From Acinetobacter sp. TGL-Y2 (lineage in GTDB: Bacteria; Pseudomonadota; Gammaproteobacteria; Pseudomonadales; Moraxellaceae): a stretch of 64,000 nucleotides of DNA. The first letter of the stretch is position 1, and each line of letters starts with the position of its first letter. This document shows positions 39,806 through 55,860 of the stretch, in pieces. The DNA is taken from the NCBI RefSeq assembly GCF_001612555.1, contig NZ_CP015110.1, positions 310,001 through 374,000 on the forward strand, given 5' to 3'. The position numbers and the translations under genes were made by a program. Below the pieces are notes generated by a model. The model was not told the origin of the DNA. It did no database searches and was given only the letters and a program-made list of their open reading frames with translations.

Positions 39806-40225
39806 ATGAAAAATATCCGACGGGGTTTTACTTTAATTGAATTGATGGTCTGCATCAGTATTCTTGCAATTATTACTTCAATTGCAGCGCCCAGTTTTAG
39901 TCAGCAAATTCAAAACCATAAGTTTAATAATGAAACTCGAGACGTTTTGACCTTAATGGGCGAGGCCCGTGCTCAAGCCATTAGCCTTAAAAAAGATGTC
40001 AAAGTGCATTTTTCAAAACAATTAACAGATCAAAATAATGCGACCAATTTTTATTGGTCGGCTCAAAATGCGCAAATTTCTCAAGTGAATCATATTGAAT
40101 TCGATATGCTGGGTCAGGTCAAACAACGTCCTCCCAATGGCTGCATTGCCATTACGCACAATAAAGTATTTACGGTCAATGTTTTAGGTTCCTTGAATGC
40201 CGCTCAGGAGAACGCAACATGCTAA
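39806..40225 (+). CDS. fimU: Type IV minor pilin FimU/FimT-like (GspH family), operon 1
   Basis: A 139-residue prepilin, leader MKNIRRG then FTLIELMVCISILAIITSIA. The GspH-like body has ETRDVLTLMGEARAQAISLK and a C-terminal CIAI strand. FimU links tip minor pilins to the shaft. I used the ATG at 39806; a GTG three codons upstream is possible. First gene of minor-pilin operon 1; it overlaps pilV. Confidence 0.87.
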   Translation: MKNIRRGFTLIELMVCISILAIITSIAAPSFSQQIQNHKFNNETRDVLTLMGEARAQAISLKKDVKVHFSKQLTDQNNATNFYWSAQNAQISQVNHIEFDMLGQVKQRPPNGCIAITHNKVFTVNVLGSLNAAQENATC

Positions 40226-40728
40226 GTCCTGCGCGTAAAAAACAACAGGGTGTCGGGTTTATAGAGGTATTGGTCGCTTTACTGTTGTTGGCTGTGGCAG
40301 TGCTTGGCTATGTAGGACTGCAATATCGCTCTTTAGATGCCACTGTAGAGGGAGGCTCACGAGTCGAAGCAATTGGTTTGGCACGCGACTTGGCAGAACG
40401 TATTCGGGTAAACCGCAACGCGTTAAATGTATATACGAGCCAATTAAAAACCGCAGCTGCACAAACCCAATATAAAACCGATTGCGAAAAAACCAATTGT
40501 AGCGAAACAGATATGGCCGATTTTGATGTGGCTCAAGTCGTGACCAACGCCAATGTTTTAGGAATGAGCATGAACATTATGCCATGTCCAAAAAATGAAA
40601 ATAGCCTGAATTGTATCTATGTGGCATGGGGAGACACCAGTCCAACCAATGGTGATGGGGTCGGTGATTGTACTCAAGACAATGCTTATCACAGAGCATC
40701 TACATGCATTATTATGGAGACATATTAA
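40219..40728 (+). CDS. pilV: Type IV minor pilin PilV, operon 1
   Basis: A 169-residue prepilin with a less usual processing site, QQG then VGFIEVLVALLLLAVAVLGY. The IGLARDLAERIRVNRNAL segment and CIYVAWGDTSP near the end are typical of PilV. It belongs to the tip priming complex. The ATG is within the last codons of fimU, with AGGAG upstream. Confidence 0.87.
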   Translation: MLSPARKKQQGVGFIEVLVALLLLAVAVLGYVGLQYRSLDATVEGGSRVEAIGLARDLAERIRVNRNALNVYTSQLKTAAAQTQYKTDCEKTNCSETDMADFDVAQVVTNANVLGMSMNIMPCPKNENSLNCIYVAWGDTSPTNGDGVGDCTQDNAYHRASTCIIMETY

Positions 40729-40730
40729 TC

Positions 40731-54873: not shown

Positions 54874-55399
54874 AAATTGGACCAAGCGAATATCTCAGCA
54901 GGGATTTACATTAATTGAATTAATGATTGTGATTGTAATTGTGGCAATCCTTGCCGCAATTGCAATTCCAAGTTATCAGAGCTACGCTCGAAGAGCCATA
55001 GCTGGTCAGGCACAGCAGGAAATACAAAAGCTGGCAGAGCAGTTAGAGCGTCATAAAGGTAAAAATTTTAGTTATTTAGGATTTGAACCTAGCTATCTCT
55101 ATAAAGATAATAGCGACAATATTATTGGTTATAGTACAACTAATGCGCAATTAAACCTGCCGTTAGAGAGTACAGGGGCAGCAGTTAAATATATTATTTC
55201 AATTCGGGATGGGATAAATAACACAAAACTACTAACTGATACGACTGCTTTAGGACAAAGATGGGTCATTAAAGCAGAAAGCCGGGATCCTAAAAATTTT
55301 ACCTTTCTTATGACAAGTACAGGGGTCCAGTGTAAAAATACTACTCAAGCAAATGTATCTTACACAGGGTGTGGAACTGGGGGGGAGAACACATGGTAA
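54863..55399 (+). CDS. pilE: Type IV minor pilin PilE-like, first in operon 2
   Basis: A 178-residue prepilin, FTLIELMIVIVIVAILAAIA, with LAEQLERHKGKNFSYLGF matching its operon 1 counterpart. The start is uncertain (ATG 54854 or 54863); both overlap the end of pilY1. The last codons contain seven G in a row that also form the ribosome site of the next gene. Confidence 0.82.
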   Translation: MRNKNWTKRISQQGFTLIELMIVIVIVAILAAIAIPSYQSYARRAIAGQAQQEIQKLAEQLERHKGKNFSYLGFEPSYLYKDNSDNIIGYSTTNAQLNLPLESTGAAVKYIISIRDGINNTKLLTDTTALGQRWVIKAESRDPKNFTFLMTSTGVQCKNTTQANVSYTGCGTGGENTW

Positions 55400-55860
55400 G
55401 AAATCGATCAGGATTTACGCTTATTGAATTAATGATTGTGGTGGCCTTAATTGCTATTCTCGCTGCCATAGCATTCCCTTCTTATCAGGAACACGTAAGA
55501 AAAACAAAACGTACAGAAGTACAAGCTGAATTAATCGATATAGCAAGCAGATTGCAGCAGTATAAATTGACCAATTTTAATTACAAAGTAAATTCAACTA
55601 CTGCGATTGATTTAACCAAGGTCGGTTTTTCTTCGACTACACCTTCATCTCAGAATGGGTTATATACAATTAATTTAAGCTTTAATACAGCAGCAACTAG
55701 TTGGATATTAAATGCTATACCTATTACAAGCGAAAGTCAGAAAAATGACGGAATAAGTTGTTTAGATGATACGGGGCAGCGTTACTGGTCTAAAGGAACA
55801 TCAACTGCAGCAGCATGTAGTAGTGCTTTAGCAGTAACCTCCAACTGGGACGGTCGCTAA
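55393..55860 (+). CDS. pilE: Type IV minor pilin PilE-like, second in operon 2
   Basis: A 155-residue prepilin, leader MVRNRSG then FTLIELMIVVALIAILAAIA. SYQEHVRKTKRTEVQAELI is close to the operon 1 copy. The ATG at 55393 follows GGGGGAG and overlaps the previous stop. It ends operon 2. I saw no strong terminator before rpsP. Confidence 0.85.
   Translation: MVRNRSGFTLIELMIVVALIAILAAIAFPSYQEHVRKTKRTEVQAELIDIASRLQQYKLTNFNYKVNSTTAIDLTKVGFSSTTPSSQNGLYTINLSFNTAATSWILNAIPITSESQKNDGISCLDDTGQRYWSKGTSTAAACSSALAVTSNWDGR

Follow-up and report, generated by a model that had tools for sequence, protein, structure and literature searches.

How does one strain come to hold two complete gene sets for the tip of a type IV pilus side by side, and what would it use them for? 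This question is raised by a locus of Acinetobacter sp. TGL-Y2, found in 64,000 nucleotides of contig NZ_CP015110.1 (positions 310,001 to 374,000; assembly GCF_001612555.1), the whole of which we call the window. Between ispH and rpsP-rimM-trmD-rplS, two seven-gene minor-pilin/PilY1 sets lie head to tail on the plus strand, both in the order fimU, pilV, pilW, pilX, pilY1, pilE, pilE2, as a first-pass annotation of the DNA had described. Set 1 spans 39806-47370 and set 2 spans 47688-55860, and all 14 genes are open with no stops. We think it probable that set 2 was transferred to its place beside set 1, that its vWA module was exchanged later, and that the two sets provide alternative tips on the same major pilin.

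Separate ancestry of the two sets

Paired proteins of the two sets share 35-50% identity; they are homologous yet far from identical, as had been noted from the letters alone. For 7/7 genes of set 2 the nearest match is the one cassette of A. variabilis NIPH 2171 (G192, L163), at 82-90% amino acid identity, and for 6/7 genes of set 1 it is a cassette of A. lanii (G022), at 57-71%. In a tree of 127 PilY1 proteins drawn from 96 genomes, set 2 joins A. variabilis NIPH 2171 (support 99) and set 1 joins the upstream cassette of A. lanii (support 100). The flank tree was built from three proteins only (IspH, RimM, TrmD) in 94 genomes and is weakly resolved, with 18 of 91 branches starred; it groups the window with A. 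lanii and G125 (support 83) and places A. variabilis elsewhere. From the end of set 2 onward (55837-57842), the DNA is 90.9% identical to A. lanii. Because of the two trees, the gene-by-gene nearest matches and this flanking identity, we read set 2 as another lineage's cassette lying in host-like surroundings. By these sequence comparisons the two sets are shown to be of separate ancestry, each related to others cassette by cassette. The seven genes also share one history as a unit, since one genome is nearest in all seven genes of set 2, another in six of the seven of set 1, and the gene maps place the cassettes at the same site. Set 1 is likely the older resident, its nearest known relative, A. 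lanii, also being among the nearest flank relatives of the window.

The first-pass annotation had offered two origins for set 2, an old duplication or a transferred allele set, and had proposed pair alignments and trees to see whether it groups with a different species. It does, and the second origin is the one that is supported. If one cassette had been duplicated long ago within the host line, with the copies diverging in place, the equal gene order and orientation and the pairwise homology would be expected, but each copy is closer to a cassette of another species than to its neighbor, the PilY1 tree separates them, and every close relative of set 2 would have to be a later receiver. We regard this history as very improbable. 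Tandem duplication in the host line was accordingly rejected as a candidate, the copies not being nearer to each other than to those of other species. Decay of one set, another concern of the annotation, was not seen either: there are no stops, and set 2 keeps its amino acid identity to A. variabilis while about half of the fourfold degenerate sites outside pilY1 differ.

Exchange of the vWA module

Within set 2 pilY1, the DNA for residues 49-650 is 96.8% identical to A. variabilis, compared with 81.0% across the remaining set 2, a difference reached in 0 of 2000 block shuffles. Identity to A. variabilis at fourfold sites is 0.93 within this block of about 1.8 kb and 0.52 in the remaining pilY1. 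A recent exchange of the vWA tip adhesin module inside this gene is thereby shown at the level of DNA identity. We suggest that the module was exchanged by recombination after set 2 had arrived, with A. variabilis or a third species as donor or recipient.

A DNA comparison of the 127 pilY1 genes gives 14 matches between different genomes with 90% or more identity over 400 bp or more, and in four of these the ispH genes are at most 81% identical (G028/G190, 74; window/G192, 78; G072/G150, 80; G087/G166, 81). In G028/G190 (L102, L103), pilY1 is 97.0% identical over the whole gene, with ispH at 74% and trmD at 78%; on these identities, this is a clear case of recent transfer between distant species. 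Across 8001 PilY1 pairs, the identity of the N-half differs from that of the C-half by a median of -10 points, and in the 25 most extreme pairs the N-half is above the C-half by about 12-21 points, which suggests that these are older chimaeras.

The two PilY1 adhesins and their pilins

Both PilY1 proteins have an N-terminal vWA domain with a metal ion-dependent adhesion site (MIDAS): D59-x-S61-x-S63, T205/T207 and D373 in set 1, and D67-x-S69-x-S71, T384 and D545 in set 2. These positions are invariant across 38 and 41 alignment rows, respectively, the query included. Calcium-type loops can be read from the translations (DRNSDGLTD in set 1, DRNNDGIID in set 2), and a C-terminal beta-propeller is found in both. 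The T4P_PilY1 family scores 47.7 bits in set 1 and 27.9 bits in set 2, slightly below the cut-off of 28.1; the final 650 residues of the set 2 protein align with the same region of 25 relatives. Both N-halves are predicted to have a vWA fold, and the models suggest that the set 2 protein carries a long beta finger which the set 1 protein does not have. VIA-align on PDB candidates gave matches for both N-halves, including rows with vWA in their titles; since the title of the top row, 9c4f_I, names no such domain, structural support is taken from the vWA-titled rows. When the vWA insert was measured by a regular expression, 53 of the 127 proteins were missed and the values were absurd; alignment columns were used instead.

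The prepilin features named in the first-pass annotation are also kept, with a qualification for PilX. In Pfam searches, N_methyl is above its cut-off in 10 of the 12 prepilins (fimU, pilV, pilW, pilE and pilE2 of both sets), and the two PilX proteins match PilX_N and not N_methyl (Table 1), their translations having V instead of E at position +5 of the mature pilin. The PilW family is above cut-off in both pilW genes and the Tt1218-like family is found in both pilV genes. ComP_DUS is above cut-off in three of the four pilE/pilE2 genes, set 2 pilE reaching 25.9 against 27.3.

A proposed single pilus machine with two alternative tips

A single PilB, a single PilQ and a single PF00114 pilin score above cut-off in the genome, as would suit two tip sets sharing one pilus machine. 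We suggest that the minor pilins and PilY1 of either set form a priming complex of their own, which would start fibres of the same major pilin; this is inferred from what is known of these proteins in other species. The cell could then form pili with either of two tip adhesins, the set 2 tip bearing the long beta finger, for different surfaces or tasks. On this reading, both tips would work.

Several observations weigh against our explanation of the two sets as a whole. Set 1 pilV is closest to G146 (62%), not to A. lanii. In the six pilin genes of set 2, fourfold identity to A. variabilis lies at 0.38-0.58, which is like that of ispH (0.39), gmk (0.51) and relA/spoT (0.41) and below that of rpsP, rimM, trmD and rplS (0.62-0.83). 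Judged by synonymous sites outside the vWA block alone, recent transfer of set 2 is not shown; because fourfold identity is unremarkable there, the case for transfer outside the block depends on where set 2 falls in the trees and on its amino acid identity. The model of the set 1 PilY1 is the weaker one, with a mean predicted local distance difference test score of 72, and Foldseek against the PDB, on the candidates that VIA-align did match, matched neither N-half at an E value of 0.001. A promoter scan of 39400-56400 returned 51 promoter-like sites against 49.8 in shuffles and did not show a promoter for set 2. Finally, a single fibre is made uncertain by another, short pilin gene that lies next to another ligase-like gene.

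This last point bears on another explanation, that each tip set has its own fibre, the PF00114 pilin (29477-29917) for one and the short pilin (31604-31957) for the other, giving two kinds of pilus. Each of these pilin genes is followed by an open reading frame (29951-31594 and 32003-33670, respectively), which we take to be a membrane ligase-like gene. Relatives of the short pilin at 1e-12 occur in 13 of the 175 Acinetobacter genomes compared, but only the window is among the 29 genomes with tandem sets described below; since it alone has both, the short pilin and the tandem do not go together. A passage of a paper on Xylella (PMC9956873) argues that major pilins require a cognate minor-pilin set, which would fit separate fibres. 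We consider separate fibres improbable and favor two tips on one major pilin.

Tandem cassettes across Acinetobacter

We searched 175 Acinetobacter genomes for IspH, TrmD and a PilY1 profile, and cassettes were collected and scored in 96 of them, the window included (for G155 and G181, only part of the main-site set was covered). Counted in full for each genome, at least two PilY1 profile matches occur in 37/175. The gene maps show two cassettes with a PilY1 at the ispH-trmD site in 29/175, about one in six, counting the window; these include G126, inferred across a contig break, and G172, in which both sets are without some genes. In the remaining eight, the second PilY1 is on another contig (G001, G155, G181, G191), a single gene is matched twice or a fragment is matched (G099, G115, G118), or the source is a contaminated metagenome-assembled genome (G060). 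The tandem count is possibly low, as broken assemblies may conceal more. On the flank tree, at least nine changes between tandem and single are needed. In Acinetobacter the minor-pilin/PilY1 (ComC) cassette usually sits in the ispH-rpsP interval, where the window holds two distinct alleles in tandem. Our search of open-licence PMC papers, leaving aside supplements, subscription papers and preprints, turned up no description of minor-pilin/PilY1 sets standing in tandem in this genus.

The same survey bears on the possibility, raised by the first-pass annotation, that an assembly error joined alleles from two strains. Set 2 is close to another species, and the contaminated genome G060 (contamination 7) shows eight PilY1 matches, as such an artefact might. 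Yet the contig of the window is 3.38 Mb with a contamination of 0.53. A join is unlikely because 28 other genomes hold a pair of cassettes here, in 27 cases within a single contig, and because the DNA beginning at the end of set 2 is A. lanii-like. We give an artefact hardly any credence.

It could also be that the tandem is a transient stage of cassette replacement, in which the incoming allele lies beside the resident, one is to be deleted and there is no division of labor. Cassette types do not track the flank tree, as judged by eye, and some loci look like intermediates: in G109 (L159) a full cassette is followed by a stray pilE-pilE2 pair, such as a lost second set might leave, G172 has its two incomplete sets, and in A. 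lanii (L038-L039) about 9.4 kb separate the two sets, with open reading frames that we take to be transposase-like. However, 22 of the 29 tandem genomes fall within a single clade of the flank tree (26 genomes, support 99), which includes A. haemolyticus, A. gyllenbergii, A. vivianii, A. dispersus, A. colistiniresistens, A. proteolyticus and A. halotolerans, and the downstream PilY1 proteins of these 22 form one clade together with G036 (support 99). Tandems can therefore last, since 22 of 26 clade members keep theirs with related downstream PilY1, and in the window all 14 genes are open. We hold a transient stage to be unlikely, and continue to favor two working tips. In the downstream set of the 22 clade tandems, pilE2 was not detected.

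Further cassettes lie elsewhere. G074 has a third set beyond trmD (L042), whose fimU is in two separate pieces and perhaps broken. L146, L147 and L148 (G001, G155, G181) are second seven-gene cassettes on other contigs, and their PilY1 proteins form a clade of five with the downstream copy of G074 and with G003 (support 98).

MIDAS loss in tandem sets

The MIDAS was scored as D-x-S-x-S (S or T) plus a later T/S-D, the middle T being listed and not required. It is intact in 61/63 PilY1 proteins of single cassettes, 25/28 upstream and 7/29 downstream proteins of tandems, 5/6 where a genome has its second set on a different contig, and the one third set. In 25 of the 28 tandems scored for both proteins, an intact PilY1 stands beside a degenerate one, and in three (window, A. 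lanii, G154) both are intact. These 25 pairs are not independent, because just three changes on the PilY1 tree suffice for the degeneracy. Since the single cassettes of G036 and G174 are also degenerate, MIDAS loss is not confined to second copies.

A broader and more tentative picture, possible though rather doubtful, is that the ispH-rpsP interval serves as a store of tip adhesins. Competent cells would import whole cassettes and, separately, bare vWA modules via the pilus; settled tandems would split the work, usually between a MIDAS and a MIDAS-less PilY1, and this strain, with two MIDAS and different vWA inserts, would have switchable tips.

Relation to known systems

In Neisseria, PilC1 and PilC2 are two PilY1-type tip adhesins in one cell; to our knowledge, no second minor-pilin set is attached to them. 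The genome of the window likewise has more than one complete tip set, with two PilY1 genes in all, each accompanied by six pilin genes.

In A. baumannii, the ComC/FimU/PilV cassette is swapped as one recombination block, leaving the flanking genes (PMC10374093). The same seven genes are found there, with vWA variants with and without a finger-like insert and the MIDAS kept. Those are alternative alleles of one cassette, whereas here two alleles stand side by side and the vWA module is exchanged within pilY1; the main text of that paper contains none of the words tandem, duplicat, paralog or copies. The gene order equals that of the fimU-pilV-comB-pilX-comC-comE-comF operon of A. baylyi ADP1, in which knockouts differ by gene in transformation and twitching; unlike in the window, one operon and one ComC are listed in the table of that paper (PMC5542475).

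Myxococcus xanthus has three minor-pilin/PilY1 clusters, and thus several tip sets per genome; its PilY1 proteins have a conserved C-half and differing N-halves, and differential expression has been proposed to vary its pilus tips. Unlike the two sets described here, its clusters are separate, with other N-terminal domains (DUF4114), and are not tandem alleles of one site (PMC13190605, PMC9109919). Xylella fastidiosa has three PilY1 and paralogous pilEVWX/fimT/pilY1 sets with mostly opposing knockout phenotypes, but these lie in two different genome regions and are read as duplication with neofunctionalisation (PMC9956873). Several tip sets per genome are thus already known. With about one-sixth of its genomes carrying two tip cassettes at one site, and with a vWA adhesin module seen to have moved independently from one lineage to another, the genus Acinetobacter offers a natural experiment in tip specificity. 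It poses the questions of alternative tips per cell, of the matching of minor pilins and PilY1, and of the role of a PilY1 without a metal site.

Locus features and transcription

The features are collected in Table 1. The start of set 2 fimU is most likely the TTG at 47688, which has GGAG 6 nt upstream. The spacer between the sets is 317 bp long, AT-rich and has a single terminator-like hairpin, and as first noted there is no transposon at the junction. Its source is not indicated by the loci compared, which gave three weak matches, none informative, and its short resemblance to the DNA before rpsP is too weak for use. Because stable hairpins follow ispH and set 1, the two sets probably form separate transcripts. 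This evidence comes from the folded hairpins only, as a terminator scan of the interval used for promoters found 12 terminator-like sites against 12.4 in shuffles. A plasmid carrier of set 2 PilY1 was not found, the matches being below 30% identity in five records, four of them chromosome-sized.

Table 1 Features of the tip locus, in window coordinates
Feature	Coordinates	Strand	Basis or remark
ispH	38687-39655	+	upstream boundary of locus; gene maps
Terminator-like hairpin 3' of ispH	39678-39715	+	-17.8 kcal/mol, z -3.68, 2/200 shuffles as stable; U-rich tail
Set 1 fimU (prepilin)	39806-40225	+	translation, Pfam
Set 1 pilV (prepilin)	40219-40728	+	translation, Pfam
Set 1 pilW (prepilin)	40731-41804	+	translation, Pfam
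Set 1 pilX (V at +5)	41801-42565	+	PilX_N 22.8 bits, below 25.5 cut-off
Set 1 pilY1/comC, 1286 amino acids	42581-46441	+	vWA N-half with MIDAS, beta-propeller C-half
Set 1 pilE/comE	46451-46918	+	translation, Pfam
Set 1 pilE2/comF	46912-47370	+	translation, Pfam
Terminator-like hairpin between sets	47397-47429	+	-13 kcal/mol, z -4.16, 0/200 shuffles as stable
Set 2 fimU (prepilin; TTG start)	47688-48203	+	translation, Pfam
Set 2 pilV (prepilin)	48194-48694	+	translation, Pfam
Set 2 pilW (prepilin)	48697-49650	+	translation, Pfam
Set 2 pilX (V at +5)	49647-50393	+	PilX_N 29.0 bits, cut-off 25.5
Set 2 pilY1/comC, 1488 amino acids	50407-54873	+	N-half: vWA with MIDAS, long beta hairpin in the model; C-half: beta-propeller
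Recently exchanged block in set 2 pilY1, residues 49-650 (vWA module)	50551-52355	+	DNA identity to A. variabilis
Set 2 pilE/comE	54854-55399	+	translation, Pfam
Set 2 pilE2/comF	55393-55860	+	translation, Pfam
rpsP, rimM, trmD, rplS	56005-58142	+	downstream boundary of locus

Elsewhere in the window, pilB lies on the minus strand within 14501-18328, where we also presume pilC and pilD by likeness. The G+C content drops to 0.285-0.323 at 30001-32000. In 58252-63180, which begins with a presumably lipase-like gene (58252-59226), several stretches find their match in the same two parts of the A. variabilis locus, which hints at related genes in repeat.
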